A stretch of 51,768 bases of DNA from Syntrophomonadaceae bacterium (GTDB taxonomy: Bacteria; Bacillota; Syntrophomonadia; Syntrophomonadales; Syntrophothermaceae), in contig JAAZLJ010000089.1 in assembly GCA_012799365.1 (NCBI GenBank), forward strand, positions 1-51,768, read 5' to 3'. Position 1 is the first letter of the stretch. Every line of letters begins with the position of its first letter. Made by a program: the position numbers and the translations under genes. The notes beneath the pieces were generated by a model. It had not been told where the DNA came from. It did no database searches and saw only the letters and a list, made by a program, of their open reading frames with translations. Below, one piece after another: positions 1,943-18,224 of the stretch.

Positions 1943-3001
1943 CTATCGATTTACGGCGCGTATGATCTCGCGTGGTATGTCCCAGATGGGAGCGATTACA
2001 TCTGCCCCTCCCTGTTTGATGGCTTCTCCCGGCATGCCGAAGACGATAGCACTTTCCTCGGATTCGGCGATGGTGGTGCCTCCGGCCTGGCGGATCTTGA
2101 CCATGGAGTCTGCGCCATCTTTTCCCATCCCGGTCATCAGGACTCCGATGGTATATTTCCCATACGCTTTTAATACCGAGTCCATCATTATGCTCACCGA
2201 GGGGATGAACAGGTGGTCGGGTTGGGAGGGAAGCCTGACCACCACCTCCCCGATTGAATTCTTGAACAGGTTAAGATGGCGTCCTCCGCGCCCCACATAC
2301 ACGGTTCCTGGTTCGACTTTCATTCCTGCTTCTACCTCTACTACCTGCAGGTCGCAGGCCTTCTGCAGGCGTTGAACATAGCTGGAGGTGAAGTTAGGGG
2401 GCATATGCTGCACCAGAAAGAAGGCGGCGTTGATATCCCCGGGAATCCGGGGTAAAACCTCGTAGATGACCTTGGGACCACCGGTAGAGATGCCCATGGC
2501 CACTGCTTTTATTTGTCCTTTATACACTGACCGGGTACTGGTACTGGGAGCTGAAGCCGCGGGGTAGCCCGCCCGGGCCAGTCGTTCAGTTACGTTGCCT
2601 CGTTTTTTTAGCAAAGCGGCGGTTTTAACCTTGTAAACCAGTTCATCGGCTACTTCCATCAGGTTGCTGGAGACGGTTCCACCTGGTTTGGCCACATAAT
2701 CAAAGGCCCCCAGTTCCAGAGCCTCAAAAGTGGTCAGAGCTCCCTCCTGGGTAAGGGAAGAAACCATAACTACCGGGCAGATCTTTTCCATAACTATATA
2801 CTGCAGGGCGGTAATACCGTCCTGTCTGGGCATGTTGACATCCATAGTTACCACGTCAGGCTGGAATTCGCGAGCCTTGATTACCGCGTCTTCGCCATCT
2901 CGGGCGGCACTCACTACTTCGATATCAACATCGGCTTCCAGAATCTGCCTCAGCATTTTCCGCATCAAGGCGGAATCGTCAGCGATCAGCACCCTAATCA
3001 C
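1943..3001 (-). CDS. cheB: chemotaxis protein-glutamate methylesterase CheB
   Basis: 352 residues: N-terminal receiver domain (phosphoacceptor about D54 in VVTMDVNMP), linker, then CheB methylesterase domain. The catalytic triad is visible as S172 in GISTGGP, H199 in VQHMPPNF and D295 in MTGMGKDGA. It removes methyl groups from glutamates of the MCP, opposing CheR, and may also deamidate glutamines. GTG start at 3001 with GGAG 8 bases upstream; it overlaps the triple cheW stop region by spacing of 1 base. Full family length, no oddities. Confidence 0.96.
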   Translation of the reverse strand: MIRVLIADDSALMRKMLRQILEADVDIEVVSAARDGEDAVIKAREFQPDVVTMDVNMPRQDGITALQYIVMEKICPVVMVSSLTQEGALTTFEALELGAFDYVAKPGGTVSSNLMEVADELVYKVKTAALLKKRGNVTERLARAGYPAASAPSTSTRSVYKGQIKAVAMGISTGGPKVIYEVLPRIPGDINAAFFLVQHMPPNFTSSYVQRLQKACDLQVVEVEAGMKVEPGTVYVGRGGRHLNLFKNSIGEVVVRLPSQPDHLFIPSVSIMMDSVLKAYGKYTIGVLMTGMGKDGADSMVKIRQAGGTTIAESEESAIVFGMPGEAIKQGGADVIAPIWDIPREIIRAVNR

Positions 3002-3002
3002 A

Positions 3003-4550
3003 TTACTCGCTCCTACCTTGTTTTTTTAGTTTGGCCGGCTTTTTTTTGCTTTTTTTAGCCGGTTCCGGTTTGTCCATATCTATTAATTTCTTCCACTCTT
3101 TTTCGATGAGGATGTTTTCCAGATTCAGCATCAGGATCATCCGCTCGGGCAGGTTGGCTATGCCTTCCATGAATCGGGCTATCTGGTCATCCTGCAGAAC
3201 CTCTGGTGCTGTCTCCAGCTGGTTCTGGGAAACGCGCAAGACTTCCAGCACTTCATCAACGATAATGCCGATCTTCTTGTTATGGATTTCGCTGACGATG
3301 ATACGCGTAAATTCAGTGTATTCCTGAGCTTCCATTTCGAAGCGTTGGCGCAGGTCTATGACCGGAATCACATCACCGCGCAGGTTGACTACACCTTCGA
3401 CAAATCTGGGGGCCCGGGGCACCCTGGTTATTCGGGACAGGCGGTTGATTTCCTGTACCTGAGTTATACGCACCCCGTACTGTTCATCTGCCAGTTTGAA
3501 GACCACCATCTGTTCTTCGTCAGCGGTATCGACCTGATCTACCTCTTCCTCAACAGCCGCTGATTCGGTAGTTTCCAATTGTTCTATATTTACCATCTCG
3601 TCTCCGGTCATGATGCTGCTGGCTTCCAGCAGCATTATGATGCGTTCTCCCTCATCGAGACGCACGATGCCCTGCAGCTGTTGGCGGGCCTGACCGACGA
3701 TGGTCTGGGGGGGTGGGAATATGGTGTCCCGGGCTACCCTGGTTACTTCATGTACCTTATCTACCACCATGCCCAACTGGATATTACCGATATCGATTAC
3801 GACTACCCGGGTATGGTCATTGACTTCGTCACTGCCCATATCCAGTTTTATGCGCATATCGATAACCGGCAAAAGCCGATCTCGCAGGGAGATAACCCCT
3901 TTGATATAATCCGGGACATTGGGAACCTTGACGATTTCCGGGAAACGAATAATTTCCCGTACACTTTCAATTTCCAGTGCAAATTCTTCGTCCCCCAGCA
4001 AGAAAGAAACCAGCTGTACCTCTTCCAGAATTTTCTCCTCGGTCTGTTCCAGGGTTTTACCGGTGGTGGTTACGGCAGTCTCCACTTCATTGGATTTATC
4101 AATACTGCACAGCTGTGATACGTCCAGAATCATAACTACCTTTGAGCCCTCGTTAACCTTGACCATTCCAGCGATGGTGTTGGTATCCGATTCGGCTACC
4201 ATGGCCGGAGCCGGTTCTATATTTTCGTTTTCCACCCGCAGCACTTCAGAAACGGCATCAACACTGAGGCCTATCGTTTTTCCGTTGATATCTACCACTA
4301 TCACCCGGCTGGCCACATCACGTTCTATGGCCGGCATTCCGAATTTGGTACGGGTGTTGATAACCGGCAGAATAGTACCCCGCAGGTTGGTAACCCCTTC
4401 GACATATGCGGGTGCCTGGGGGATGGTGGTGATGGACGGTATACGAATGATTTCCTGGACATTCATAATATTGATACCGAAGTTTTCCTGATCCAACCGA
4501 AAGGTAACCAACTGCATCTCGTCTGAGGACAGCAAATTCTCGGCGCTCAT
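3003..4550 (-). CDS. cheW: three-domain CheW coupling protein
   Basis: About 515 residues made of three consecutive CheW domains (roughly 10-150, 175-315 and 345-490). Each starts with a QLVTFRL / QLVSFLLGDEEF / QMVVFKLADEQYG strand and contains the repeated RxxIIRxPxIxxxPxAPxxVEGVxNLRG block, seen as VTNLRGTILPV, VISLRDRLLPV and VVNLRGDVIPV. CheW couples MCP receptors to CheA; normal CheW has one domain (about 150-170 residues). The chosen ATG at 4550 has AGGAGGGATACA just upstream; an in-frame codon at 4586 lacks such a site. The Lys-rich tail (KKSKKKPAKLKK) is unusual. No separate single-domain CheW is seen. Confidence 0.93.
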   Translation of the reverse strand: MSAENLLSSDEMQLVTFRLDQENFGINIMNVQEIIRIPSITTIPQAPAYVEGVTNLRGTILPVINTRTKFGMPAIERDVASRVIVVDINGKTIGLSVDAVSEVLRVENENIEPAPAMVAESDTNTIAGMVKVNEGSKVVMILDVSQLCSIDKSNEVETAVTTTGKTLEQTEEKILEEVQLVSFLLGDEEFALEIESVREIIRFPEIVKVPNVPDYIKGVISLRDRLLPVIDMRIKLDMGSDEVNDHTRVVVIDIGNIQLGMVVDKVHEVTRVARDTIFPPPQTIVGQARQQLQGIVRLDEGERIIMLLEASSIMTGDEMVNIEQLETTESAAVEEEVDQVDTADEEQMVVFKLADEQYGVRITQVQEINRLSRITRVPRAPRFVEGVVNLRGDVIPVIDLRQRFEMEAQEYTEFTRIIVSEIHNKKIGIIVDEVLEVLRVSQNQLETAPEVLQDDQIARFMEGIANLPERMILMLNLENILIEKEWKKLIDMDKPEPAKKSKKKPAKLKKQGRSE

Positions 4551-4701
4551 TGTATCCCTCCTAGCATTATTAACAGATATGTCCATCGAGAGACCGAACG
4601 GCTCGATATATTGATAGTTTCTGGCACTGGAAACCGTCGGCCTTCTCCCCGGACTGTCAAACTATTAGTATACATAACGATGGCCAATAATCACTGGTTT
4701 A
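4551..4701. other. intergenic gap, no gene seen
   Basis: Apart from the RBS of the triple cheW, nothing recognisable is seen: no clear hairpin with a T tract, no good promoter pair and no repeat copy. Confidence 0.5.
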
Positions 4702-6658
4702 CTAACCGAGCTGCATCTCGTCAGCTATGGAGGCGATCTCTTCGATGGAGTTGGCCAGTTCGTTAACAGCTTTGGCCTGTTCCTGGCCGATACGGACCGC
4801 TTCCTGCAGGGTGGTAGCGGAACCGAGAAGCTGATTTACTTCTTCACAATCGTTAACCCCTTGTTCAGCGGCAGCTTGAGCTTCCTGGAGCCGTTCCGGC
4901 AGTGCTGCTCTTACTTGCTCCATATCCTGCAGCAGGTCAGTGACTGCCTGGTTTCTCTCGGCGGTTCCGTGCATAATTTCATCGGCCTGGCGTGAGGCGG
5001 CTTCCGACAGGGAGATCTCGGTTACCACCCGGGCCATCTGCAGCTGAATATCGTGTACCAGGTCTTTGATTTTATCTGCATTTTCAGCCGATTCGTTGGC
5101 CAGGTTCCGGATATCGCCGGCCACGACCGAGAATCCCCGCCCGTGTTCGCCTGCGGTGGCCGCCTCCACGAAACCATTTACCGCCAGCATATTGGTCTGC
5201 ACCGAGACGATTTCGATGGTATCCACAATCTTTTCAATGCGACGGATCCTCTCCTGCAGTGATTCCACGGCAGCGTTGGTGGCGTCATATGAAGACATGC
5301 GATCCTGGACGTTTTTCCAGACCTTGGCAGCGATATTGCGGCCTTCATCCAGAATCTGTACCAGTTCATCGTAAATTTCACCAGCCGAACCGGCTGCATC
5401 GGTGATTTGTCCCAGAAGCTCCCCGCCTTCGTTAAATAAACCATAAACGTTTTTCCCATCATCAGTCAGGTTCATCAGACCACCCTGCATCTGAGCCAGA
5501 GCGGAGGCGATTTCCGCGGCCGAGGTGCTGACTTCTTCGATATTGGCTGAGAGCTGTTCAGCGGTAGCGGCTACTTCTTCCGCCGATTTGTTGATATTGG
5601 TGGAGGTTTTGAGTTCCTCGGCCATATCGGTCAGCTCCTGGGTAGCCATATTGACTTCGGCCAGAGCTTTGCCCTGTTCTGCCACTGCCTTGGTGGATTC
5701 CTGGGAACCGCTGGCAATCTGGGCGGTACCAGCCGCCATGGCTTCACTGGCAGAAAGTACTTCCCCAGCTTTACCCTGTAGTGCGGCCCCGTCTTCGACT
5801 TCTCCATGTACCATTACGGCATACTGATTGAACAGTTCACCCATCTTTTCAAAGCCGCGATAGGCTGTTTCAGTTTCTCCTCGCATGTTGACGAATTCTT
5901 CTACCACCACGTTGATATCCTTGACCACCTGTTCCACCCCGGAGCGGATCTCCTCTACTACCCCGCGGATGTCGCGGGCACTGCGCTCCGAGATCTCAGC
6001 CAGGTTTCTCACTTCATCGGCTACCACGGCGAAACCGCGGCCGTGTTCCCCGGCCCGGGCTGCTTCAATGGCCGCGTTGAGAGCCAGCAGATTGGTCTGA
6101 TCGGCGATCATGACTACCGCCTGAACGATCTCTCCGATCTGGCGGGATTGTTCTTCCAGTTCGGCGATACGTTTTACCTGATTCCTGGTTTTTCTCGGCC
6201 GCTTCGCTGAGCTGGTCATACATGGCCTGCATGCCGTTCATGGATTCCCGGACTGCACCTATGCCGTTTTCTGCTCGCTCGTTCAGAGTCTGAAAGGTTT
6301 CCTGTAGCTCCACCGCTGAGCGGTCAACCTGCACCGCTCCAGCCCGCAGCTGGTCGGCGTTATTACCGATGCGGTCGGCATTCTGGGCTATTATTTCCAT
6401 TAAACGGGCAAATTCGGTGCCTGCGGCGGCGGTTTCTTCTACCCCGGCCAGCAGCTGTTCCGAGGCGGAGGCGATGCGCTCGGCCATAGCCTGTTGCTTG
6501 GCCAGGGTGCGGGCCCGGGCCTTTTCCTGGGCCAGCTTGCGGGCCTGTTCCCGTTTGCGGGTGATGTCATCATCGGTGTCTGGTTTGACCGTTATGCCGG
6601 TTTTATCCGCCATCGCCATTTCTCCGAAAGATGTTGGTTTTTCCAGTCTTTTTGCCAT
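4702..6658 (-). CDS. soluble methyl-accepting chemotaxis protein, frameshifted in this sequence
   Basis: Two overlapping reading frames form one receptor: residues coded from 6658 to about 6190, then a +1 shift into the frame that ends at 4702. No transmembrane segment is visible, so it is cytoplasmic. After a charged N-terminus and coiled coil comes an MCP signalling hairpin ([20 protein letters not shown], then [16 protein letters not shown]). A second diverged hairpin follows ([20 protein letters not shown], then [16 protein letters not shown]). ATG at 6658 has GGAGG six bases upstream. The shift point is at or near an A5 run (6189-6193); deleting one A would restore [16 protein letters not shown]. 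Sequencing error and real mutation cannot be told apart here. Confidence 0.85.
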
Positions 6659-6688
6659 TTCCATCCTCCTAATCCGGTTCTTTAATTT

Positions 6689-8176
6689 CTATAAAACATT
6701 TAATGATTTGCTTTTTTGATTTTCTATCTGGTTATCGGTGGTGTAGACCATTTCGGTTATCTCCACCTGATTCTGGGTGCCCGTCTCGATGTCCAATGCC
6801 GTTACATTCAGCACTCCATTGCGGTCGATGGTGAAGGTTACGTCGATGTTGGGTTCCCCGGCTTTGCCTTGTTGTATCCCGGCCAGGTGAAATTTACCCA
6901 GGGAGATGCGAGCGTCTTCTTCACCCATTTCGTCTCTCTGCAGTATGTGAATCATCACCTCCTCCTGATCGTCTCTTACCGTGGTAAAAAGTCGTGATTG
7001 TTCCACCGGGTAAGGGGTATCGGCGGGGATGAGGGGGATGAACTCCCCCTCATCGTCCTCGACTCCCAGGGTGTGAGAAGTTACATCATGCAGTTCTACA
7101 TTATTAATCTTACCAGCGAGGACCCCGGCGGTTATGGCTGCTCCCAGGGCTACTACCTCATCCGGGTTGATGTCATGTCTGACTTCTGCCTCTCCAAACA
7201 TTTCCGCTACCAGCTCACGGAAACCGGGCATGCGGGAGGCACCTCCCGCCAGAACTACTATATTTACCCATTGTTCTTCTACCCCGGCTTTCCCCAGGGT
7301 TTGGCGGATGAGTGACTTGATTTCTTGAAACAAATCATCACACAGGTTGGTAAACTGCTCGCGTTGGATGGTCTGATTCAAATGCACCGGCCCCTGGCTG
7401 TTCATGGTGATATAAGGAATAAGTATGGAACATTCGTTGACGGTGGAGAGGTCTATTTTAGCCTTCTCGGCGTTGATCTGTATTTGCTGCAGGGCCACTC
7501 GGTCTTGAGACAGGTCAATCCCGCTGGTTTCCTCGAAGGTCGATAATACGTGCTGCACCAGACGTTCATCAAAATCAAGTCCACCCAGAGCCGTGGAGCC
7601 ACCGGTACACATGACCCGGTATATACCCTCCTGGTATTCCATCAAGGTGATATCGAAGGTTCCGCCGCCGATGTCGAGTACCAGTACCTTTTCCTGATCC
7701 CCGGATTGCATACCGTAAGCCAGGGCAGCTGCGGTAGGTTCGTTCAACAGTTTGAGTATTCTGATACCGGCCAGTTCTCCGGCCAGCAGGGTACTCTGGC
7801 GCTGGTTATCGTTGAAATAAGCGGGTACAGTTACCACCGCCGCCTCGATCTCCTGGCCCAGATACTCCCGGGCATACTGCAGGAGTTTGCGCAAGATAAG
7901 GGCCGAGATCTCAGCAGGGGTATAGTCGTATTCCGAGATGTGGACGCGGTAATCAGAACCCATGCAGCGTTTAATGGAAGATATGGTACGGTCTGATTTC
8001 AGAATCATCTGGGATCGAGCCAGTTCACCCACCAGAACGTCCTGATCATTTTTAAAGTAGACTACCGAAGGAGTCAGCCGGCTTCCGCGTTCATTAATGA
8101 CTATCTCTGGTTTGTTTTCCCGGTTGACAAAGGCTACCAGAGAGTTAGTGGTGCCCAGGTCAATGCCTACGATCAT
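6689..8176 (-). CDS. DnaK-like Hsp70 with shortened C-terminus
   Basis: 495 residues, versus about 610-640 in housekeeping DnaK. The nucleotide-binding domain is complete: GIDLGTTNS at the N-terminus, VTVPAYFNDNQRQST, LDIGGGTFDIT and LAGGASRMPG. A substrate-binding beta domain follows (SHTLGVEDDEGEF to VTALDIETG), but the protein ends soon after, leaving almost no helical lid. No dnaJ or grpE lies nearby. ATG at 8176 follows GGAGGAGG. Its place between the ParA/TPR pair and the MCP suggests a dedicated role in building or remodelling the chemosensory array (inference); a general chaperone is less likely. Confidence 0.9.
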   Translation of the reverse strand: MIVGIDLGTTNSLVAFVNRENKPEIVINERGSRLTPSVVYFKNDQDVLVGELARSQMILKSDRTISSIKRCMGSDYRVHISEYDYTPAEISALILRKLLQYAREYLGQEIEAAVVTVPAYFNDNQRQSTLLAGELAGIRILKLLNEPTAAALAYGMQSGDQEKVLVLDIGGGTFDITLMEYQEGIYRVMCTGGSTALGGLDFDERLVQHVLSTFEETSGIDLSQDRVALQQIQINAEKAKIDLSTVNECSILIPYITMNSQGPVHLNQTIQREQFTNLCDDLFQEIKSLIRQTLGKAGVEEQWVNIVVLAGGASRMPGFRELVAEMFGEAEVRHDINPDEVVALGAAITAGVLAGKINNVELHDVTSHTLGVEDDEGEFIPLIPADTPYPVEQSRLFTTVRDDQEEVMIHILQRDEMGEEDARISLGKFHLAGIQQGKAGEPNIDVTFTIDRNGVLNVTALDIETGTQNQVEITEMVYTTDNQIENQKSKSLNVL

Positions 8177-8194
8177 AGTGCTTTCCTCCTCCAG

Positions 8195-8563
8195 TTAGAT
8201 TAATTCCAGGTTGTCACGGGCAGTGGTGTTTTCTGGGTTTACTTCCAGAGCCCGTTTTAGAAAGCCGCGGGCGGTTTCTGCCATCTCGTATTCAGCTAAA
8301 ATGACGGCGGCATTGTTCAGAGCCCGGGAGGCCAGGGTACGTAGAGACATATCGGGTTCTCCGCTTGGTTCCAGAGCCTCGATTACCCGACGGTACAGGT
8401 GATAAGCTTCAAAAACATTTCCCCCGTCCTCCTCGCGCAGAGCTTGATCGAACCAGGTACGAGCCTGTTCCACAGTTGAGGTCTGCCGTTTTCGGGTTGA
8501 CCCGCCTTCAACCGAGGTGAGCAGGGCATCAAGTCCCATGCCCAGGTTTTTTCTGGTGGTCAT
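8195..8563 (-). CDS. small TPR-like protein with ParB-like N-terminal peptide (putative ParA partner)
   Basis: 122 residues. The N-terminus has LGMGLDALL (residues 7-15), closely resembling the N-terminal peptide of ParB proteins (GLGRGLDALL) that touches and stimulates ParA. The remainder is helical with TPR-like helix pairs (TWFDQALREEDGGNVFEAY; ALNNAAVILAEYEMAETA; FLKRALEVNPENTTARDNLE). There is no ParB DNA-binding domain. Its ATG overlaps the ParA stop (ATGA, 8560-8563), implying translational coupling. Most likely an adaptor linking ParA to the chemosensory array, analogous in logic to PpfA/ParC/ParP-type proteins; this is inference from peptide and context. Confidence 0.7.
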   Translation of the reverse strand: MTTRKNLGMGLDALLTSVEGGSTRKRQTSTVEQARTWFDQALREEDGGNVFEAYHLYRRVIEALEPSGEPDMSLRTLASRALNNAAVILAEYEMAETARGFLKRALEVNPENTTARDNLELI

Positions 8564-9354
8564 GCTTCTTCACCGCTTTTTAACAAAATGGCCCGGGTTA
8601 CAGCTTTATAGTCTTGAGCCCCACGGCAGGAAGGGGCATATTCGAATATGGTTTTCCCGAAACTGGGGGCTTCGGCCAGTTTGATATCGTTCCTAATCGG
8701 CGGCAGCAGCTGTTCTTCGCCGAAATTATGGGCGATCTCATGTAATACGCTGCGGGCCAAATTGGTACGCAGGTCGCATTTAACCGGCAGGATGCCCAGT
8801 AATCTGAGATCCGGGTTGAGCTCGGCGTTGATACGATAGAGAATACCCATCATCTGGGCCAGTCCATCCATGGAAAGGAAACTGGGTTCAATGGGTATGA
8901 CCAGCCAGTCGGCTGCTACCAGTCCGTTGACGGTGATAAGGCCCAGAGCCGGGGGCAGGTCGATCAAGACATAATCATACGTTCCTTCAATTTCCAGCAG
9001 CAGGTCCTGCAGCAGGCCTTCACGAGCCGGGCTCTCGGCTATTTCTATTTCCAGGGCCGAGAGATCCGGGCTGGATGGTATGAGGTCGAAAGCTTTGTCC
9101 CCCTGGAGAAAGTCCTTCAGGAGTGAGTTGAGGCTGGTGTTGTCCCGGGCAGCCATAAGGTGCATCAGCTGGTAGATGGTCATCGTCAATTGATGGGGAA
9201 GGATGCCGCAGCTGATGGTGGCCTGCGCCTGGGAATCGGCATCAATAACCAGCACCTTTTTCCCCTGGCGGGCCAGTCCGTCGGCGATGTTGATAGTACT
9301 GGTAGTTTTACCACTACCTCCTTTACGGTTAGCAACGACAATGGTTATGGCCAT
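8560..9354 (-). CDS. ParA/Soj-family ATPase
   Basis: 264 residues, typical ParA/MinD-family length. It begins with the deviant Walker A ANRKGGSGKTTSTINIADGLA (Lys at both ends of the loop), followed by VLVIDADSQAQAT and DYVLIDLPPALGLITVNGL (Walker B). Such ATPases form gradients on the nucleoid and position plasmids, chromosomes or protein clusters. Two bases after cheA and overlapping the TPR adaptor, it is almost certainly dedicated to the chemosensory array rather than to chromosome partition, as there is no parB or parS-like site here. GGAGGATAGCC precedes the ATG. Confidence 0.92.
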   Translation of the reverse strand: MAITIVVANRKGGSGKTTSTINIADGLARQGKKVLVIDADSQAQATISCGILPHQLTMTIYQLMHLMAARDNTSLNSLLKDFLQGDKAFDLIPSSPDLSALEIEIAESPAREGLLQDLLLEIEGTYDYVLIDLPPALGLITVNGLVAADWLVIPIEPSFLSMDGLAQMMGILYRINAELNPDLRLLGILPVKCDLRTNLARSVLHEIAHNFGEEQLLPPIRNDIKLAEAPSFGKTIFEYAPSCRGAQDYKAVTRAILLKSGEEA

Positions 9355-9356
9355 GG

Positions 9357-12143
9357 CTATCCTCCTATTTGTTCAGAAAGGTACTGCCGCAGCAGTTGGT
9401 TCAGGTTCAGAATCAGCACCACACTGCCATCTCCCAGGATGGTTGCCCCGGTGTATATCTTTAATGCAGCCAGCTCTTCGGTCAGGGATTTGATGACGAA
9501 TTCCTGCTGGTTTTTGAAGTGGTCAACGATGAGTCCGACCCTCATCCCGTCGATGGGGGCCACTACGATGGAAAGCCGGTCATCCAGCTGTTTCTCGTGG
9601 TTAGAATCAGGTACAGGTTCGATTCTTAGCAGTTCATGCAGAGGCATTAGCGGTAGGATCTGACCCCTGATGTCGGCTACTTGATTATCCTGATAGCGTC
9701 GGATAGCGGTAGGAGGCAGTTTAACCGTTTCTTCAATGGAGTCGAATCCGATTATGTACGGCTGTCCTCCCGCTTCGACCATCAATCCCTGAATTATGGA
9801 CATGGACAGCGGGATCTGCAGGGTGAATGTAGTACCGACATTGACTGCACTTTGCAGGGTTATGGAGCCTCCGACCCGTTCAATGTTGCTTTTTACCACG
9901 TCCATCCCTACTCCACGACCGGACAGCTCGGTTACTTCATCCCGGGTGCTGAACCCGGGGGCAAAAATGAGCTGGCAAGCTTCCTGGTTATTCAGGGACT
10001 CAATCTGATCGGTAGTGATCAGCCCTTTTTTCAAGGCATTCAGTTTAATCTCGTCTGGATTCAGTCCCCGGCCATCATCGCTGATTTCGATTACCACACT
10101 GCTGCCTTGATAATAAGCTCGCAGGTGAATGGTGCCCCGGGGGTCTTTGTCCAGGCTGCCGCGGGCCTCGGGGGTCTCGATACCGTGGTCGACGGCATTA
10201 CGGAGCATATGTACCAGGGGATCGTTAATAGCTTCCACTACGGTTTTGTCCAATTCGGTTTCTTCTCCCTCTACCTTGAGTTCTACCATTTTCCCGGCTT
10301 TGCGGGAGGCATCGCGTATGGTGCGGGGAAAGCGTTGGAACAAGGTGCGCAGCGGCACCATGCGGGCTGACATTATGGCATCCTGAAGCTCATCGGATAT
10401 ACGGGATACTTCGGCTGCCATTTCATTCATCTCCCGGGAAAGAGAGGGTAAATTGTATTCCAGGCTGACATTATTGGCCAGATGAAGGATGCGGTTCTTG
10501 GATACCAGCAGTTCACTGATAGCATTGACCAGCCGATCCAGCTTTTCCTGACTTACCCGAATGGATTGGGAAGTGATGGCTGCCGGTCTCCCGGCTGTAT
10601 CCGGTATCTGCCTGCGCTTTTCTCGAGCCAGGGCTTGTTTGGAAAGAGCTTCTTTAACGTCTTCTGCGCTGGCCATATCGTTATCAACCAGGATTTGGCC
10701 CAGTTTCTTCTGCTGTTTCAGGGCCTGGTCCAGATCCTCCGGCTTCAACTTGTCCTCGGACACCAGAATTTCTCCCAACTTTTTATCGGCGTAATCCCCC
10801 GGGGTAGATTCCACGGTTTGTTGGACAGCTGCTATCCTGGTTTCCAGCATATCTTTCAGGTCGGTAAAAGACTTGTGCAGAAAATCCAGCAGTGGTTGGC
10901 TAACCAGGTTTTCTTCCGGGGAGAATGTCTCCAGACGGTGCAGCTGTTCTGTTACACAGGATACTATATCGTCGTATTCAAGGTAGATGGCGCTGGATTG
11001 AAGATTTTTTAGAGCTCTTATGTACTGCTTGAATCTCTTCTGGTGAACCGGGTGGTTTTCCCGGACACTATTCAGGAGTGATTCCATGGAATCCAGGGCC
11101 TGATTGGTGATGTTGGTGAAGGCGGCCAGTTTACTGGCAGCCTTGTTTTGGTTTGCTGCTGGCTGGTCTTTTTTGGTTTCTGAAGATTCTGCTAATCCAC
11201 TTGATAGCGATTCTATTTGTTCAATCAGCTTGTCGAGGGTAAAATCAGCCTCCCGGTTCTCTTTGACCAGGCCGGTCAGGATAGTCAGCCGATCCACGGC
11301 CTGCAGAATCAGATCCACCATATCAGCTGGCGGTTCCTGAGTACCCTGGCGAAAAGTCTGCAGTAGCGATTCAGCCGAATGGGTCAGGGCTCTGATAAGG
11401 GATATAGGGTCCCGGGGATTATCTTCGTTTTGTATGCTGGCTACTACCCCGGCCCCACCTTTGATACTGTGAAATCCACGCAAAATAGCATTCAGCAGCT
11501 CCGGGTCATGGGGGTGTTTTTCCAGGGCTATGCAGTTTTGCTCAATAATGTACAGGTGTTCGGTGGTTTCTTCGATAAATTCCGCCCGCATCTGCTCGAA
11601 TAGGGCGGAAAGTTCTAACTTTCCAGATTCCAGACCAGATTCCGGTTTGGGTGGGGATTTCTCCTCCACCATTTCAGGGGAGGTTTTCTGGTTTTCAGCT
11701 GCTAACCTGGTTCGCAGCGCAGTTACTTCCTCAATAAACTCGGTATATCCGTAATCCGGAATGGTTATGTCGAATGTTGCTGCCGAGGAATCACTTTCCA
11801 AGTTCTGCACCTCGGTTCCCAGCTGATTGATCAAGAGGTTTAGAATATCTACTCCCTGCAGCAGGATATCGGTGACCTCGATACCAGCTGAATAAAGACC
11901 CTTACGCAGGTCGGTCATCAGGGATTCCAGACAGTGGGCGGTATCGCGTAGAGGAACCAGGTCGACAAAGCTGGCTACTCCCTTGATAGAGTGCAGGGCA
12001 CGAAATACCGAATCGACCAATTCTGGTGCGAAGTCGGCTTCCAGTTTCAGGATGTCTCCTTCGATGCCTTTCAAGTGTTCGGTTGATTCTTCGAAAATTC
12101 CCTGTAGTATTTCCAGATCGTCAGCTTCAAAGGTGAATTTCAC
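9357..12143 (-). CDS. cheA: CheA histidine kinase with two Hpt domains
   Basis: 928 residues, longer than usual CheA. Hpt1 (about 1-110; phosphoacceptor H51 in ALHSIKG) and Hpt2 (about 180-300; H225 in GFHSIKGG) are followed by a helical region and two short GspE/PilB N-terminal-like repeats around 455-505 (KLGEILVSEDKLKPEDLDQA, KLGQILVDNDMASAEDVKEA). Then come the dimerisation helices (about 528-600), the HATPase domain (MLRNAVDHGIE, DDGRGLN, GRGVGMDVV) and a C-terminal CheW-like domain. It reads receptor state and phosphorylates CheY/CheB and perhaps the receiver-HEAT protein. GTG start with a weak AAAGGCGG upstream; preceded by a repeat that separates it from cheY. Confidence 0.95.
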   Translation of the reverse strand: MKFTFEADDLEILQGIFEESTEHLKGIEGDILKLEADFAPELVDSVFRALHSIKGVASFVDLVPLRDTAHCLESLMTDLRKGLYSAGIEVTDILLQGVDILNLLINQLGTEVQNLESDSSAATFDITIPDYGYTEFIEEVTALRTRLAAENQKTSPEMVEEKSPPKPESGLESGKLELSALFEQMRAEFIEETTEHLYIIEQNCIALEKHPHDPELLNAILRGFHSIKGGAGVVASIQNEDNPRDPISLIRALTHSAESLLQTFRQGTQEPPADMVDLILQAVDRLTILTGLVKENREADFTLDKLIEQIESLSSGLAESSETKKDQPAANQNKAASKLAAFTNITNQALDSMESLLNSVRENHPVHQKRFKQYIRALKNLQSSAIYLEYDDIVSCVTEQLHRLETFSPEENLVSQPLLDFLHKSFTDLKDMLETRIAAVQQTVESTPGDYADKKLGEILVSEDKLKPEDLDQALKQQKKLGQILVDNDMASAEDVKEALSKQALAREKRRQIPDTAGRPAAITSQSIRVSQEKLDRLVNAISELLVSKNRILHLANNVSLEYNLPSLSREMNEMAAEVSRISDELQDAIMSARMVPLRTLFQRFPRTIRDASRKAGKMVELKVEGEETELDKTVVEAINDPLVHMLRNAVDHGIETPEARGSLDKDPRGTIHLRAYYQGSSVVIEISDDGRGLNPDEIKLNALKKGLITTDQIESLNNQEACQLIFAPGFSTRDEVTELSGRGVGMDVVKSNIERVGGSITLQSAVNVGTTFTLQIPLSMSIIQGLMVEAGGQPYIIGFDSIEETVKLPPTAIRRYQDNQVADIRGQILPLMPLHELLRIEPVPDSNHEKQLDDRLSIVVAPIDGMRVGLIVDHFKNQQEFVIKSLTEELAALKIYTGATILGDGSVVLILNLNQLLRQYLSEQIGG

Positions 12144-12396: not shown

Positions 12397-12771
12397 CTAG
12401 CTTAACAACATGCGAATGTTCTCCAACAGGATTTCGGGATCGGTGGGCTTGACTATGTAAATATTAGCTCCGGCCTCGAAACCTTTTTCTTTATCCTTTA
12501 ATTCTTCTTCGGTAGAGACAATGATTATCGGCATGTCCTCATATTCGGGAACCTCTCGCAAGCGTTCGATCAAGGTATATCCATCCATGTTGGGCATGTT
12601 GATATCGGTGATAACCATTACCGGCTGTTCAGAACAACCGTATATTTTTTCCAGGGCATCAGCCCCGTCTACTGCGGTCAACACATCATAGCCAGCACTT
12701 TTTAATATGTAGCTGTGAAAGTTCCGAATCATTTCAGAATCGTCAGCTATCAGGACTATGCTCCTCGCCAT
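12397..12771 (-). CDS. cheY: single-domain response regulator (CheY-like)
   Basis: 124-residue receiver domain with the acidic pair in LIADDSEM, the phosphoacceptor about D56 in MVITDINMPNMDG and the conserved Lys in IVKPTDP. No output domain. AAGGAGG lies eight bases before the ATG at 12771, and cheR ends 13 bases upstream. It is well diverged from the other CheY of the locus, so the two probably have different partners. Likely phosphorylated by CheA. Confidence 0.92.
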   Translation of the reverse strand: MARSIVLIADDSEMIRNFHSYILKSAGYDVLTAVDGADALEKIYGCSEQPVMVITDINMPNMDGYTLIERLREVPEYEDMPIIIVSTEEELKDKEKGFEAGANIYIVKPTDPEILLENIRMLLS

Positions 12772-12784
12772 TACTTATGCCTCC

Positions 12785-13615
12785 TTAAGCCTGGTATACG
12801 ATCTGGCCATGCATTTTCCTTATTTTATAGGCCGTGCTCATGCGGCTAAGGGATTCAGCATGTCCCAGAAAGATAAAACCGCCTTGATTCAACATGGTGT
12901 AGAATCGGTCTACCACTTTTTTGCGGGATAAATCGTCGAAATAAATAAGTACATTGCGACAGAAAATAAAATCGTAGTTGTTTTCATAGCGCAGAGCCCG
13001 GTGATCCATAAGGTTCAAATGTTCAAAAACTACCATTTCTCGTACCTCAGGATTGACCATGTACTGGCCCGGGGCTGGAGAAGTAAAATATCTTTCCAGG
13101 TAAAGAGGGGGTACGTCTTTGACTGAACGACGGTCATATATTCCCTGACGGGCGGCAGCCAGGACGTTCTCATCTATGTCTACTGCTTTGATTATTGTTT
13201 GTTTCGGGCTGATGCCTTCCAGCATTTCCAGCAGAATAATGGCCAGGGTGTATGCTTCTTCTCCAGTGGAACAACCGGCACAGAAGATCTTCAACGTGGG
13301 AACTCCCATTTCCAGTTTGCGCCGGGTTACCTGCTGCAAACAGGCTTCCCCAAAAACCTGTAACTGCGAAAATTCCCGAAAAAAATAGGTTTCATTGACC
13401 GTCAGCAAATTTACAAGCTGCTGAAATTCCTGGCTTTCCCGATCAAACCACTTGAGATGTTTCAGGTATGCTTCTACGCTATCAAAACCGCCCATCCCCA
13501 TGCGCTTTTGCAAGCGCTTTTTGACGTAGTAAATCTTATTTTCCCCGAAATGGATACCGGTTCGGTCGTAGATGAGGTCCCTTAGTTGTATAAAATCTTG
13601 AATTGAAAGATCCAT
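12785..13615 (-). CDS. cheR: chemotaxis protein methyltransferase CheR
   Basis: 276 residues, the usual CheR length. An N-terminal helical domain (FIQLRDLIYDRTGIHFGENK) precedes a SAM-binding Rossmann domain with IFCAGCSTGEEAYTLAI (motif I), AVDIDENVLAAARQG and YDFIFCRNVLIYFD. It transfers methyl groups from S-adenosylmethionine to receptor glutamates, opposing CheB, both encoded here around one soluble MCP. ATG at 13615 with AAGGGTG upstream; 17 bases after the receiver-HEAT gene. Confidence 0.96.
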   Translation of the reverse strand: MDLSIQDFIQLRDLIYDRTGIHFGENKIYYVKKRLQKRMGMGGFDSVEAYLKHLKWFDRESQEFQQLVNLLTVNETYFFREFSQLQVFGEACLQQVTRRKLEMGVPTLKIFCAGCSTGEEAYTLAIILLEMLEGISPKQTIIKAVDIDENVLAAARQGIYDRRSVKDVPPLYLERYFTSPAPGQYMVNPEVREMVVFEHLNLMDHRALRYENNYDFIFCRNVLIYFDDLSRKKVVDRFYTMLNQGGFIFLGHAESLSRMSTAYKIRKMHGQIVYQA

Positions 13616-13632: not shown

Positions 13633-15105
13633 TTAACTGATATTCCTGAGCAGCTCTATGGAACGGTCCAGGGCCTCCAGAATATCAACATTATCGACCT
13701 GGTCGCGAAGTTTTTCCAGATAGCGTAAAGCCGCCGGGTTATTATAAAGTCCCAGGCCTTCAACCGCGCCCAGGCAGACCAGGGCATTGGTCGAAGAGGC
13801 ATAGTTCAAGAGCAAGGGGAAAATAGCCTCATTCGTATACCTGGCTAACAGGACCAGCAGCTCATATTTGTTAATGTCATTGATGTTCGTGGCAATATAG
13901 TTGGCCAGAGCCGATACAAGTTCATCGGGCAGTTCATTCCTACCGCTGCGGCGTAGAATACTGTCTACGGCGTTAATGATCTCTTTGGTCATGGTATCTC
14001 CCTTTTCCACCATCAGGGGTATTATCAAAGGCAGGTGTTCTTCTGAACCCTGGCGGCCGACAAACTTGACCAGGGAATATAGTTCCAGCTCGTTGATGGA
14101 ACCGGGGTCAGGATATAAGCTGGCCACGACCTTTACTGTATCTTGATTACCGATAATCGACATAGCTTCCAGACAGGTGCAGCGCAGCAGCAGGTTGTCG
14201 GCGGTAGTAAAGATGCGGTGAATGCGTTCGATGTAAGCACTGGCTTCCAAACGTCCCAGGTACTCGACTGCGGTGATAACGATGTTTAGTTCCGGGTCTT
14301 CCAGCGCTTCTGCCACCATACCCGGGGTATATCGGTTGTTGATTTGAAAGATAATATCCAGGGCAAACTTTCTCACATCTTTATCGTTGTTGTGCAGTAG
14401 ACGCTGTAGTCCTATGACGGCTTGTTCTCCCTGATAGGTAAGAATATCAATGCCGGCATTGCGGATAAAAGCATCATCACTATACAGAAGGGGGATAACT
14501 TTTTCTGCCAGGTCGGCAGCTTTCATACTCTTGAGTGCGTTAGTGATAACTTCCTGTACAAAGCGCGAGGGTTCTATCTGTAATCGCTTGACCAATGCCT
14601 CAATGGCCGGTGTCAGGTTATCGTAACCGATGTCTTCAGCCGCAAAGGCTCTCTCTTTTTCGTCATCCGAATTAAGACGTTCGATTAATGTTTGTATTTC
14701 CATTTCTTGTTCGCCTCCTACAGGGAATATCGATTCCGTCTTATAGCGGGTGGACAACTGCTCAATAAAACGTGCCAACCACTCCACCGAGACCGGTTTT
14801 AAAAGATAATCATAGGCCCCTGCATCCAGGGCTTCTGCTCGCGTCATGATATCAGCATAGCCGGTAAAAAGCACTACTGGAGTGTTTTCCCGATGAGGAA
14901 GCTGGTGGATATTCTGTAGTAGTTCCAGGCCCGACATACGAGGCATTTTAATGTCAGTGAGCACCAGGTGAAAAGGTTTGGCCATTATGGCTTTCAGGGC
15001 TTCATCACCGTCCCCTTTTTCGGTTACCTGGCACTGCAGTTCACGTAGGAAATCGGCAATGTAACGCCTGCTTTCGGCGTCATCATCAACCAGAAGTATA
15101 TGCAT
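13633..15105 (-). CDS. response regulator with HEAT-repeat output region
   Basis: 490 residues. Residues 1-125 are a receiver domain (acidic DDD at 7-9, phosphoacceptor D51 in LVLTDIKMP, Lys in YLLKPVS). From about 150 onward it is built of HEAT/armadillo-like helical repeats (for example IGYDNLTPAIEALVKRL, AGIDILTYQGEQAVIGLQRL, FALDIIFQINNRYTP), a protein-binding scaffold with no enzyme motif. Its receiver is strikingly like that of the adjacent sigma-54 regulator, so both may share the PAS kinase. It is the first gene after the sigma-54 promoter; GGAGAGGGGGG precedes the ATG. AGGAGG at 14714-14719 before an in-frame ATG at 14703 might also give a free HEAT product. Confidence 0.88.
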   Translation of the reverse strand: MHILLVDDDAESRRYIADFLRELQCQVTEKGDGDEALKAIMAKPFHLVLTDIKMPRMSGLELLQNIHQLPHRENTPVVLFTGYADIMTRAEALDAGAYDYLLKPVSVEWLARFIEQLSTRYKTESIFPVGGEQEMEIQTLIERLNSDDEKERAFAAEDIGYDNLTPAIEALVKRLQIEPSRFVQEVITNALKSMKAADLAEKVIPLLYSDDAFIRNAGIDILTYQGEQAVIGLQRLLHNNDKDVRKFALDIIFQINNRYTPGMVAEALEDPELNIVITAVEYLGRLEASAYIERIHRIFTTADNLLLRCTCLEAMSIIGNQDTVKVVASLYPDPGSINELELYSLVKFVGRQGSEEHLPLIIPLMVEKGDTMTKEIINAVDSILRRSGRNELPDELVSALANYIATNINDINKYELLVLLARYTNEAIFPLLLNYASSTNALVCLGAVEGLGLYNNPAALRYLEKLRDQVDNVDILEALDRSIELLRNIS

Positions 15106-15175: not shown

Positions 15176-15192
15176 TGCAAGAAGCATGCCAG
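15176..15192 (-). promoter_or_regulatory. sigma-54 (-24/-12) promoter of the chemosensory operon
   Basis: On the minus strand the sequence is CTGGCATGCTTCTTGCA, matching the RpoN consensus YTGGCACG-N4-TTGCW at all key bases except one C-to-T; the GG and GC cores are exactly 12 bases apart. The expected start of transcription is near 15165, giving a leader of about 60 bases to the ATG at 15105. A sigma-54 activator is the next gene upstream, so self-contained control is likely. Confidence 0.85.
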
Positions 15193-15219
15193 TGGCCGTA
15201 AGTCGAAAAAAGGCATAAA

Positions 15220-15247
15220 AGAGGGGGTAGATTGCTGCTGCCCCTCT
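15220..15247 (-). terminator. terminator-like hairpin after the sigma-54 regulator
   Basis: On the minus strand AGAGGGG pairs with CCCCTCT around a 14-base loop and is followed by TTTTAT. It lies between the activator sites and the sigma-54 promoter, so it could end the kinase/regulator transcript and insulate the chemosensory operon. Confidence 0.55.
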
Positions 15248-15252
15248 GGTGA

Positions 15253-15270
15253 GTGTGCAAATAGGTACAC
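15253..15270. promoter_or_regulatory. putative activator site (proximal dyad)
   Basis: GTGTGC-AAATAG-GTACAC, an imperfect dyad. It shares the half site GTGTGC and the six-base spacer with a second copy 31 bases away, and is centred about 97 bases before the predicted sigma-54 start. Both distance and helical phasing (about three turns between sites) suit an enhancer-binding protein. Confidence 0.6.
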
Positions 15271-15283
15271 CTATGAACACAAA

Positions 15284-15301
15284 GTGTGCGAATTAGCACG
15301 G
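15284..15301. promoter_or_regulatory. putative activator site (distal dyad)
   Basis: GTGTGC-GAATTA-GCACGG, second copy of the dyad, centred about 128 bases before the predicted sigma-54 start. See the proximal site at 15253-15270. Confidence 0.6.
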
Positions 15302-15337
15302 CCTTGGTCCTATTCGTTCGACTTCCAGGATAGACGT

Positions 15338-16804
15338 TTAGTCCTGGTCTGATATATGCTTTAGTCTGGAATAGAGGGAGCGGCGGGAAATGCCCAGATA
15401 TCTGGCGGTGGCGGTCTTGTTGCCCTGGTGCATTTTGAGTGCCTGACGGATTATATTATCGGTCAGTTCTTTAAGCGGCAGGCTGCCGGGGGGGAGGGTA
15501 AAATTCTGATGATCAAGCCAACTCGGATGGTCGGAGGCGTCCGAAACCCGGATGGGCTTACTCCGTTCCAATAGTTTCAAATGGTGAGGCTGTAATTCCA
15601 GTTCATCGTCCCAGATGAGGGCGGCATATTCCATAACATTACGCAGTTCTCTGACATTACCAGGCCATTCATAGTTCTGCAGGATTTCTCCGGCTTCAGA
15701 GCCGATAACTGGTACCGGTCTGGCTTCTGATTGGAAGAATTCGCCCAGAAACATATGAGCCAGGGGTATAATTTCTTCTCGACGTTCTCGCAGCGGTGGT
15801 AATTGAATGCGGGCTACGTTCAGGCGGTAATATAGATCCTGGCGAAAGGTGCCTTTTTCTACCATGGCGGTGATGTCCTGGTTGGTGGCGCAGATAAAGC
15901 GAACATCCAGAGGCACCTTTTTTAATCCTCCTACCCGATAAAAGGCTTTTTCCTGGATAACCCGGAGCAGTTTGGCCTGCAGGTTGACCGGCATCTCGGA
16001 AATCTCGTCCAGAAAGAGGGTGCCTCCCTGCGCCATATCCAGTTTACCTTTCCTGCCCCGGGGCTGGCTTCCGGTAAAAGCGCCGCCTTCATAACCGAAC
16101 AATTCGCTTTCAAACAGACTGGGAGTCAGGGCAGCACAGTTGAGGGCAATAAACGGCTCTGTACATTCTCCCTGACCGTAATGCAGATAACGAGCTACCA
16201 GGTCTTTACCGGTTCCGGTTTCACCTTCGATAAGCACCGGTATCGAGCGATTGGGGTGGAGTTTTGCGGCCTGGTCAAAAATTTTGCGCAGGGCCGGGGA
16301 AAAGATGCCAATCTGTCCCAGACCCTGATTCGTAAGATAGGCCTGCTGCAGGCGGGAAAGTTCATGTTTGGTTTCCGAGACAGCAGCTTCCACCACGTTA
16401 TCGAATTTATTGGTCAGGAAATGATTTTGCCTCTGCAGGGCCTGGTGTTCGGCGATGCGTTCTGTGAGGTGAACCAGTTCGTCTATATTAATGGGTTTGA
16501 GCAGGTAGTCATAGGCACCGGCCCGCAGAGCCTGCACCGAAGTGTGGAGGTCACCATAGGCGGTAAAAACCACCACGTTGACCTCGGTACCTCCTGGCAG
16601 GTGTCTTATATTATGGAGCAGTTCCAGACCTGACATGCGCGGCATTTTAATATCGGTCAGCACCAGGTGAAAGGAATCGCTGGCAAAAGCGTTCAGTGCC
16701 TCCTGACCATCAGCTTTTTCGGTTACTTCGTGGCCCAGACCTTCCAGGAACTCAGCCATAAAGGTTCTGCTGTCCTGTTCATCATCTACCAGAAGAATGT
16801 TCAT
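15338..16804 (-). CDS. sigma-54-dependent NtrC-family response regulator
   Basis: 488 residues: receiver domain (phosphoacceptor D51 in LVLTDIKMP), AAA+ domain with Walker A GETGTGKD, Walker B GTLFLDEISEMP and arginine-rich sensor regions, and a Fis-type helix-turn-helix (KTATARYLGISRRSLYSRLK) at the C-terminus. The sigma-54 contact loop reads GAFTGS rather than GAFTGA. It should bind upstream dyads and open sigma-54 promoters, most obviously the one 160 bases downstream of its own stop. ATG at 16804 lies eight bases after GGGAGG; ATG at 16807 is also possible. It overlaps the kinase gene, so the two form a pair. Confidence 0.95.
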   Translation of the reverse strand: MNILLVDDEQDSRTFMAEFLEGLGHEVTEKADGQEALNAFASDSFHLVLTDIKMPRMSGLELLHNIRHLPGGTEVNVVVFTAYGDLHTSVQALRAGAYDYLLKPINIDELVHLTERIAEHQALQRQNHFLTNKFDNVVEAAVSETKHELSRLQQAYLTNQGLGQIGIFSPALRKIFDQAAKLHPNRSIPVLIEGETGTGKDLVARYLHYGQGECTEPFIALNCAALTPSLFESELFGYEGGAFTGSQPRGRKGKLDMAQGGTLFLDEISEMPVNLQAKLLRVIQEKAFYRVGGLKKVPLDVRFICATNQDITAMVEKGTFRQDLYYRLNVARIQLPPLRERREEIIPLAHMFLGEFFQSEARPVPVIGSEAGEILQNYEWPGNVRELRNVMEYAALIWDDELELQPHHLKLLERSKPIRVSDASDHPSWLDHQNFTLPPGSLPLKELTDNIIRQALKMHQGNKTATARYLGISRRSLYSRLKHISDQD

Positions 16805-17936
16805 CATGGTCACCTCCCGTGGGTGCTTTTAAGGCGGGTAGCTCTATTCTGAAAGTGGCTCCGCCCTGATCGTTGGTATAGGTGTAGATGTGTCCTTTGA
16901 AGGCAGCCACTATGGACTGCACAATGGACAGTCCCAGTCCCATGCCCTGTTGACCGCTTTTGGTGGTGAAAAAAGGTTCAAAAAGGAGTTTCTTGCGTTC
17001 GGCATCAATTCCATAGGCATTATCGCTGATATCCAGAATGACTTTGGACCTGTTGGTCCTGGTCAGACAGGTTATTATTTTGTCCGGCCTGCTTACTTCA
17101 TCCAGAGCTTGCCTGGCATTGACCAGTAGATTGATTATGGCTTCCTCCAGACGCCGTAGGTCACCCAGGATAGGTGGCAGGTTATCAGCCAGTTCCATTT
17201 TGACCACTATTCCATGGGAGGATAATTGACGGCCCAATAGGTCCAGGGCGTTTTCTACGGCGGTGTTTACGCTGCAGGGACTCAGTTCCAAGGTGTTTCC
17301 TGTACTGGCCAGAGAGCGTATATGTTTAATGATGCTGTTGATACGGTCGGCCTGTTGGGAGATGTTTTCAATTTTATCTATGACCCGTCCCTGGGGAAGA
17401 GAATGCCCCCTTTTGTGCCAGAAAAGCATACCATCTGCCAGTACTTTAATGGCGTTCAAGGGTTGGGCGATCTCGTGAGCTACTCCGGCTGACATGGCGG
17501 TCAGAGAGACCAGTTTTTGATGTGCCAGGACGGCAGACTCTGGTGCACACAGGCTTTCCTCCGTATGATTAGCATTTTTATTCTGTTTACGGCAGGTAAT
17601 TACATAATGAGAAACCGTGCCCTGCTGGTTTATAGCTACGTTGATGGTAAAAAGTAAAGGTTCAGTACGAGGACAGTGAACCTGACCCTGCCAGTACCCG
17701 GTGCTGAGCAGTACAGGCCAGACATCAGCCATAGGTTCACAGCTGGTTTCCTGCCACAGATTCTCCAGGTGGCGGCCGACCAGCTCTGGAGCCTTGAGCC
17801 CCATAAGCCGGCCAAAGGCCGGGCTAACAGACTGCACTACACCCCGAGTGTCGGCTACAGCCACTCCTTCACCACCACAGTTCAAATGATCCAGGTATAG
17901 CTCATCGTCGGGTATTGCATTTTCCTTGTCGTACAT
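16782..17936 (-). CDS. soluble PAS sensor histidine kinase
   Basis: 384 residues with no membrane segment: a PAS domain (about 20-115, VADTRGVVQSVSPAFGRLMG), a HisKA dimerisation domain with phosphoacceptor H154 in GVAHEIAQPLN, and a HATPase domain (INLLVNARQALD, DNAYGIDAE, GMGLGLSIVQ). It probably senses a cytoplasmic signal and phosphorylates the overlapping sigma-54 regulator, and perhaps the receiver-HEAT protein. The ATG at 17936 lies nine bases after CTGGAGGTG; an upstream in-frame start at 17987 lacks an RBS. Confidence 0.93.
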   Translation of the reverse strand: MYDKENAIPDDELYLDHLNCGGEGVAVADTRGVVQSVSPAFGRLMGLKAPELVGRHLENLWQETSCEPMADVWPVLLSTGYWQGQVHCPRTEPLLFTINVAINQQGTVSHYVITCRKQNKNANHTEESLCAPESAVLAHQKLVSLTAMSAGVAHEIAQPLNAIKVLADGMLFWHKRGHSLPQGRVIDKIENISQQADRINSIIKHIRSLASTGNTLELSPCSVNTAVENALDLLGRQLSSHGIVVKMELADNLPPILGDLRRLEEAIINLLVNARQALDEVSRPDKIITCLTRTNRSKVILDISDNAYGIDAERKKLLFEPFFTTKSGQQGMGLGLSIVQSIVAAFKGHIYTYTNDQGGATFRIELPALKAPTGGDHDEHSSGR

Positions 17937-18224
17937 TGAAATGTACACCTCCAGAACCAATATTAACTGGTGAGCACTGCTGCCCACCTATAAATTCAGA
18001 ACGGCAATGAACTACAACATTAAAGTTCTACCAGGATATACAAGGCACTACTAAATCTTTCTATTTATCTATCGAAATTCCTCTAAATTAATTTAAAATA
18101 CAGGTTAAAAGTAGGTATTCGAGTTGTTAAAGCTTGTCAGCTTTGAGACTTATTGTCCGGCAAAAAAGGGAAAAATTTGTCGGGTAGCGAAATCTTTTAT
18201 AATATATCGGCAGGAGGGTTAGTA
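17937..18224. other. divergent intergenic region, kinase operon and zapA
   Basis: About 290 AT-rich bases between the divergent kinase and zapA genes. It must hold promoters for both. A TATAAT for zapA is visible (see 18177-18203); no convincing promoter pair was found on the minus strand and no repeat copy is present. Confidence 0.5.
18177..18203 (+). promoter_or_regulatory. putative sigma-A promoter of zapA
   Basis: TTGTCG (18177-18182), 15-base spacer, perfect TATAAT (18198-18203). The spacer is short, so only the -10 box is convincing. It predicts a leader of about 15 bases that just includes the AGGAGG of zapA. Confidence 0.35.

Follow-up and report, generated by a model that had tools for sequence, protein, structure and literature searches.

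A candidate ParA–TPR–Hsp70 positioning cassette in the class F9 chemosensory operon of Syntrophomonadales

INTRODUCTION

Why should a chemosensory operon carry a ParA ATPase, a small tetratricopeptide repeat (TPR) protein, and an Hsp70 chaperone between the gene for its kinase and the gene for its receptor? The question is raised by a stretch of 51,768 nucleotides (the window) from a Syntrophomonadaceae bacterium (GenBank assembly GCA_012799365.1, contig JAAZLJ010000089.1), which forms contig C6 in a draft genome of 2.24 Mb, 91.6% complete. Here, cheA, parA, the gene for the TPR adaptor, and hsp70 stand in that order upstream of the gene for a soluble receptor; all genes and motifs of the operon described below are on the minus strand. 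Judged by its gene content, the operon encodes a dedicated cytosolic array of class F9, which is a known kind of array, and only the ParA–TPR–Hsp70 cassette is new. Our preferred reading, which we consider probable though well short of certain, is that the cassette is an accessory that positions the F9 cytoplasmic array on the nucleoid.

Class F9 sandwich arrays are known by their structure, not by their function or inheritance. In the order Syntrophomonadales, an F9 system comes with a candidate positioning cassette of its own; some related genomes carry the cassette and others lack it, and members such as Syntrophomonas wolfei are in culture. No report of the cassette was found in the open-access literature on ParA with DosM, or on ParA with TPR proteins and chaperones, in chemosensing.

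GENE ORDER AND DISTRIBUTION OF THE CASSETTE

The first cassette gene encodes a ParA of 264 residues (8560–9354; AAA_31, 4e-50) that belongs to the Che-ParA subfamily and carries the sequence KGGSGKTT with the signature lysine Lys11. It overlaps the gene for the 122-residue TPR adaptor (8195–8563) by four bases (ATGA, 8560–8563), an arrangement that suggests translational coupling of ParA and the adaptor. After a further 18 nt comes hsp70 (6689–8176), encoding 495 residues (Pfam Hsp70, 5e-156). An initial annotation of this DNA had described cheA, a ParA, a 122-residue TPR-like protein with LGMGLDALL at its start, and an Hsp70 next to a methyl-accepting chemotaxis protein (MCP), and gene calls and Pfam matches in the window confirm the description. 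The order it gave for the MCP and cassette is also right, but the MCP gene itself lies outside 6689–12143 and has a broken frame, as described below.

Among 63 genomes of the order Syntrophomonadales, 15 have the adaptor. Both flanks of the cassette are visible in 13 of these, and in all 13 the order is CheA–ParA–adaptor–Hsp70–DosM, DosM being the soluble receptor. The genes before this block encode HEAT, CheR, and CheY proteins, and those after it CheW3, CheB, CheY, CheX, and CheX, as far as the contig extends. The arrangement is held across eight genera and, because 12 other genomes share it with the window, it is not a product of chance; the proposal that ParA, a TPR protein with an LGxGL motif, and Hsp70 are conserved together next to cheA is upheld. 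Cassette bearers are bacteria of methane communities.

A ParA in this position could in principle serve plasmid or chromosome partition and have come to rest in a che operon by accident. It does belong to the ParA/Soj superfamily, with 34–40% identity to Soj proteins, but relatives carry separate Soj–ParB pairs, its gene always lies between cheA and the adaptor gene, and the adaptor has no ParB domain. Across 399 sampled Bacillota genomes, the Che-ParA profile scores 480–486 bits in five genomes and at most 233 bits against other ParA/Soj proteins. Given this gap and a partner without a ParB domain, partition by Che-ParA was rejected, and we regard it as extremely unlikely. The adaptor profile exceeds 150 bits in the same five genomes only, all of them in Syntrophomonadales; the remaining matches are generic TPR proteins below 28 bits.

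No Hsp70 or adaptor match was found in 29 Bacillota F9 loci outside the order, some of them on contigs that are cut, or in a second CheW3 contig of the genome G018, and no ParB-like adaptor with an LGxGL motif occurs in the other F9 loci. Across all loci sampled, then, only the order Syntrophomonadales has added a TPR adaptor and an Hsp70. ParA homologues as such are common in che operons, being present in 37% of 206 species (PMC2829493). F9 loci outside the Bacillota were sampled through plasmid records only. Among them, the alphaproteobacterial loci L147 and L148, carried on plasmids of Methylosinus and Methylobacterium, resemble the window in having an F9 operon with parA near cheA, and their ParAs cluster with the Che-ParAs (98/100), on long branches; they differ in having no TPR adaptor or Hsp70 and in a small STAS-like protein between CheA and ParA. 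The locus has no LGxGL motif, and the STAS-like protein was considered as a ParB mimic and rejected. No parA was found in the annotated stretch of the F9 loci of Sphaerotilus, Eleftheria, Novosphingobium, Rhizobium, and Azospirillum.

Two variants were seen along the way. In G018, CheW3 is flanked by two DosM genes (L210). In G247 (L184, 6246–8718), the gene immediately before CheW3 encodes a different ParA, and this CheW3 has an N-terminal extension rich in lysine; the pair is possibly another link between a ParA and an array.

ParA AND ITS ParB-LIKE PARTNER

The residues through which a positioning ParA would contact DNA and its partner are conserved. In the family alignment, R196 and R221 are invariant and K225 is a lysine in 12 members and an arginine in one; R196 and K225 were mapped as DNA-contact positions on 8RAY and Thermus Soj (R238 corresponding to K225). 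In Myxococcus xanthus ParA, the contacts L150, G151, L152, and L192 are supported by mutation and nuclear magnetic resonance (PMC12462528). The 8RAY alignment equates them with L137, G138, L139, and L179 of Che-ParA, of which the first two are invariant and the last two are kept in 12 of 13 members. Conservation of both sets of residues counts in favour of the positioning reading.

The partner supplies the matching peptide. M. xanthus ParB has four critical hydrophobic residues, L11, L15, L18, and I19, that bind a pocket at the edge of the ParA dimer (PMC12462528), and these correspond to L7, L11, L14, and L15 of the adaptor, all invariant in the 13 adaptors. They belong to the motif LGMGLDALL (adaptor residues 7–15; 8519–8545), in which L7, G8, G10, L11, L14, and L15 are invariant across the 13 aligned sequences. 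A chance motif was rejected as an explanation: the pattern LG.GL..L[LIF] occurs within the first 60 residues of 50 of 5,057 distinct open reading frames from the fetched loci, and all 50 belong either to ParB proteins or to adaptors of this family. The motif sits on the adaptor and not on the receptor, as DosM begins MAKKLEKP... and has no LGxGL motif.

The adaptor as a whole appears to combine a disordered N-terminal ParB-like peptide with a helical TPR domain, judging from the family alignment and an AlphaFold model. The 13 aligned members share 39–47% identity with the window protein, for which Pfam gives a single weak TPR match (22.1 bits, below the cut-off) and neither a ParB domain nor a helix-turn-helix. 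The model is helical and TPR-like, with a predicted local distance difference test score of 83 and values below 50 at residues 1–12 and 17–21; its structural neighbours in the PDB are TPR proteins, with weak E-values (best 0.004). Because 122 residues leave no room for the DNA-binding domains of ParB, the cargo is not parS DNA. The system is like ParABS (Soj–ParB) in the ParA fold, the deviant Walker A motif, the LGxGLxxLL peptide, and the pocket residues, and unlike it in having no ParB or helix-turn-helix domain and no parS cargo.

The presence of a ParA-like protein and an adaptor in a che operon also recalls ParC/ParP of Vibrio, and ParA might accordingly hold the array at a pole or other site with no transport over the nucleoid. 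We consider such anchoring quite unlikely. ParP is CheW-like, has an N-terminal ParC-binding part, and works in polar membrane arrays, whereas the adaptor is a TPR protein; the CheW domains found in the draft genome are those of CheA, CheW3, and the cheA/cheW region of contig C96, with no ParP among them; and the DNA-contact residues of ParA are conserved.

THE CLASS F9 ARRAY

The receptor gene (4702–6664) encodes a DosM-type soluble protein. Like the receptors of its relatives, it has two MCPsignal stretches, and the two receptor tip motifs are about 300 residues apart. There is no transmembrane stretch: the highest 19-residue hydropathy is 1.1–1.35 among the DosM proteins of the order, compared with 2.96 for E. 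coli Tar. An AlphaFold model of an intact DosM from a relative consists of two long helices (29–349 and 355–651), and Foldseek searches with this model retrieve chemoreceptors. In the window a run of four A's (6172–6175) marks a one-base break in the reading frame, whereas relatives have a single frame of about 650 residues. A break at a different place is present in G009 (L030, 11752–13603), and both are probably errors in draft sequence. Downstream of the receptor gene, CheW3 (3003–4586) is made of three concatenated CheW domains (three CheW stretches, 372 bits).

DosM and CheW3 are defined as specific to class F9 (PMC9321776, PMC7534058), and a receptor with two signalling domains together with a triple CheW therefore identifies the array as this known kind. 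The class was not recognised in the initial annotation, but its suggestion of a dedicated cytosolic array with a soluble MCP is borne out. The F9 member of Vibrio cholerae forms a two-layer cytoplasmic array in which DosM spans both baseplates (PMC7534058; PMC9321776), and by analogy we infer the same two-layer sandwich here. This operon and cluster I of V. cholerae share a soluble receptor with two signalling domains, a triple CheW, and CheA, CheB, CheR, and CheY. A HEAT protein is likewise present in many other F9 loci, and the system stands alongside a further che set and, in most cases, flagella; what is unlike other F9 loci is ParA–TPR–Hsp70 between cheA and dosM and the two CheX and second CheY appended to the operon.

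In the genome of the window, a second cheA/cheW set lies next to flhA, flhF, and flhG on contig C96. A second che set of this kind is usual for F9 bearers. The genome G027, estimated at 99% complete, has no FlhA match, yet its F9 operon is complete and includes the cassette (L032). In so complete a genome, the missing FlhA means that the F9 output may not be flagellar.

LOSS OF THE CASSETTE

The cassette is missing from the F9 operon of two genomes of the order, G041 (L217) and G002 (L216), and no Che-ParA was found elsewhere in either (87% and 93% complete, respectively). G041 falls within the cassette-bearing clade (100/99 with L027) and retains 55 hsp70 codons directly after cheA (56% identity, E 1e-17). 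Because this remnant directly follows cheA, the deletion ran from parA into hsp70. The cassette was thus deleted in G041 while the array genes stayed intact, and the reading frames of cheA, cheW3, and dosM have outlasted it. One deletion is one event and is no proof that the three cassette genes act together. G002 has no clear remnant of the cassette and may represent either a loss or a primary absence.

The suggestion that the cassette assembles the array finds no support in these genomes, as both retain a complete F9 operon without it. Dependence of the array on the cassette was rejected on the same grounds, that is, the deletion with its hsp70 remnant in G041 and the cassette-less operon of G002. 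Deletion and absence could also mean that the cassette is decaying or neutral baggage, which we judge very unlikely, since across genera ParA and Hsp70 keep 64–71% and 66–72% identity, respectively, to the window proteins, active-site and motif residues are invariant, and the gene order has persisted in eight genera.

A LIDLESS Hsp70

Alignment with the genome's own DnaK and with a solved DnaK indicates that the cassette Hsp70 has the catalytic motifs of the nucleotide-binding domain and a beta substrate-binding domain. It stops there, without the alpha-helical lid found in its own DnaK, and all 12 aligned cassette Hsp70s are shorter at the C-terminus than the DnaK of their genome by about 100 residues or more. 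The hydrophobic interdomain linker is altered, reading VELHD in the window as against VVLLD in its DnaK (VELHD, IETHD, IEFYD, and VKLFD among the members). The early end and changed linker mark the cassette Hsp70, from its sequence, as lidless and of doubtful interdomain coupling. The tail reads RRGxxLxV in most members and KSLNVL in the window, with no EEVD.

The adaptor's fold neighbours include TPR proteins that bind Hsp70 or Hsp90 (Sec72–Ssa1, STI-1, and SGT), at weak scores, and Hsp70 binding by the adaptor's TPR domain is a lead only. The lead also bears on the idea that the cassette governs turnover of the array and not its place, with ParA and the adaptor recruiting the lidless Hsp70 to dismantle or prune the array when ATP or redox state changes. 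Hsp70 does accompany the adaptor wherever both flanks are visible, and F9 arrays of V. cholerae are assembled conditionally (PMC9321776). Yet the TPR neighbours are generic, the Hsp70 tail is not EEVD, and turnover needs no ParA with nucleoid-binding residues. On balance, we hold turnover to be rather unlikely.

An Hsp70 homologue that acts with a chemosensory pathway has a precedent in StkA of M. xanthus, upstream of the Dif system; StkA, however, is encoded at the stk locus, whereas the Hsp70 here shares a che operon with ParA and TPR genes (PMC4319316).

A POSITIONING MODEL

Under the preferred reading, the operon would build an F9 cytoplasmic sandwich array from CheA, CheW3, and DosM. ParA–ATP dimers, to go by their conserved residues, would bind the nucleoid non-specifically. 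The TPR adaptor would dock on the array and display its disordered N-terminal LGxGLDxLL peptides, which would enter the ParB pocket at the edge of the ParA dimer. The array would be tethered to the nucleoid in this way, moved over it, and shared between daughter cells, by analogy with PpfA/TlpT of Rhodobacter. The stimulus for hydrolysis may come from basic residues just before the motif, from the many peptides packed together on a single array, or from Hsp70, which probably remodels the adaptor or the array. A close parallel is the CheOp3 operon of Rhodobacter sphaeroides, where PpfA is likewise a che-operon ParA that serves a cytoplasmic cluster, has conserved DNA-binding residues, and works with a partner bearing a ParB-like N-terminal peptide. 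There the peptide is on the receptor, TlpT, whereas here it is on a separate TPR protein, the array is of class F9, and an Hsp70 has been added.

Several observations weigh against positioning by this route. Listed ParB proteins have K or R at the centre of the motif, but this basic residue is lost in 12 of the 13 adaptors, which have M, I, L, or T there, and one adaptor has K. No ParA was found in the fetched stretch of 28 of the 29 Bacillota F9 loci outside the order, the exception being G247, so F9 arrays need no ParA in general. CheA, DosM, and CheW3 of G041 and G002 show no excess change relative to leave-one-out controls, and a search for the array-docking site of the adaptor through compensating changes in these proteins of cassette-less genomes gave none above background.

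The missing basic residue has a particular consequence. R13 of M. xanthus ParB is dispensable for ParA binding and required for ATPase stimulation (PMC12462528), and with its counterpart absent the adaptor alone is predicted to bind ParA well and stimulate the ATPase weakly. LGMGLDALL had been described as a copy of the ParA-stimulating peptide of ParB; the four ParA-binding leucines justify half of that description, and the stimulatory residue is what has gone. Basic residues are present just before the adaptor motif. The adaptor is a naturally occurring case of a ParB peptide transferred to a TPR scaffold and lacking the basic residue, so it can be used to separate the binding part of the motif from the part that activates the ATPase.

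A bolder version makes the array a chaperone-gated cargo. A peptide without its trigger residue would form a long-lived ParA tether, to be released by an Hsp70 that reads the TPR domain or array, and position and remodelling would be coupled. We offer this only tentatively and think it unlikely. We know of no Hsp70-dependent ParA system, and a ParA cargo system with a lidless Hsp70 dedicated to it would, if true, be new.

THE REMAINING OPERON AND ITS REGULATION

The operon-like run in the window extends from a histidine kinase through an NtrC-type regulator, a receiver–HEAT protein, CheR, CheY, CheA, and the cassette to the receptor, triple CheW, CheB, a second CheY, and two CheX. The initial annotation had left out the triple CheW, CheB, CheR, both CheY, both CheX, the HEAT protein, the histidine kinase, and the NtrC-type regulator. 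On the downstream side, CheB (1943–3001) has a receiver and methylesterase-like sequence and is kept in the operon of relatives; it is followed by the second CheY-like receiver (1365–1754) and two CheX-like phosphatases (878–1363, PF13690, 2e-18; 411–872, PF13690, 4e-21). Upstream of cheA are a CheY-like receiver (12397–12771), the CheR methyltransferase (12785–13615), and the receiver–HEAT-repeat protein (13633–15105; Response_reg 1e-27, HEAT_2 6e-23), whose gene is the first of the conserved block.

Beyond it lie genes for an NtrC-type sigma-54 response regulator (15338–16813) and an AtoS/FixL-like sensor histidine kinase (16782–17987), which are natural candidates for control of the operon. 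A sigma-54-like promoter, TGGCATGCTTCTTGCA (15176–15191, minus strand), precedes the HEAT gene by 70 nt and agrees with the consensus at 10 of 11 positions; 3 of 200 shuffles were as good. Sites matching 9–10 of 11 positions are found in L025, L026, L027, L028, and L219. A scan of the whole window with up to two mismatches finds the pattern at chance level, and the case for the promoter therefore rests on position and recurrence. The palindrome ATAGGTGTACCTAT, within 15191–15341 between the NtrC gene and the sigma-54-like site, is a possible enhancer site.

The N-terminal receiver of the HEAT protein closely resembles the receiver of the neighbouring NtrC protein, and the corresponding L025 genes cross-match at 55–58%. 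This suggests that the receiver was duplicated and that one kinase may serve both proteins. The fusion of a HEAT protein to a receiver, seen in the window and in L025, is unlike other F9 loci, where the HEAT protein is usually about 190–200 residues long with no receiver. CheA (9357–12143) has two Hpt domains and, at residues 455–503, an MshEN-like motif of the kind that binds cyclic di-GMP (NF053729, 44 bits against a cut-off of 38), which is largely deleted in L026.

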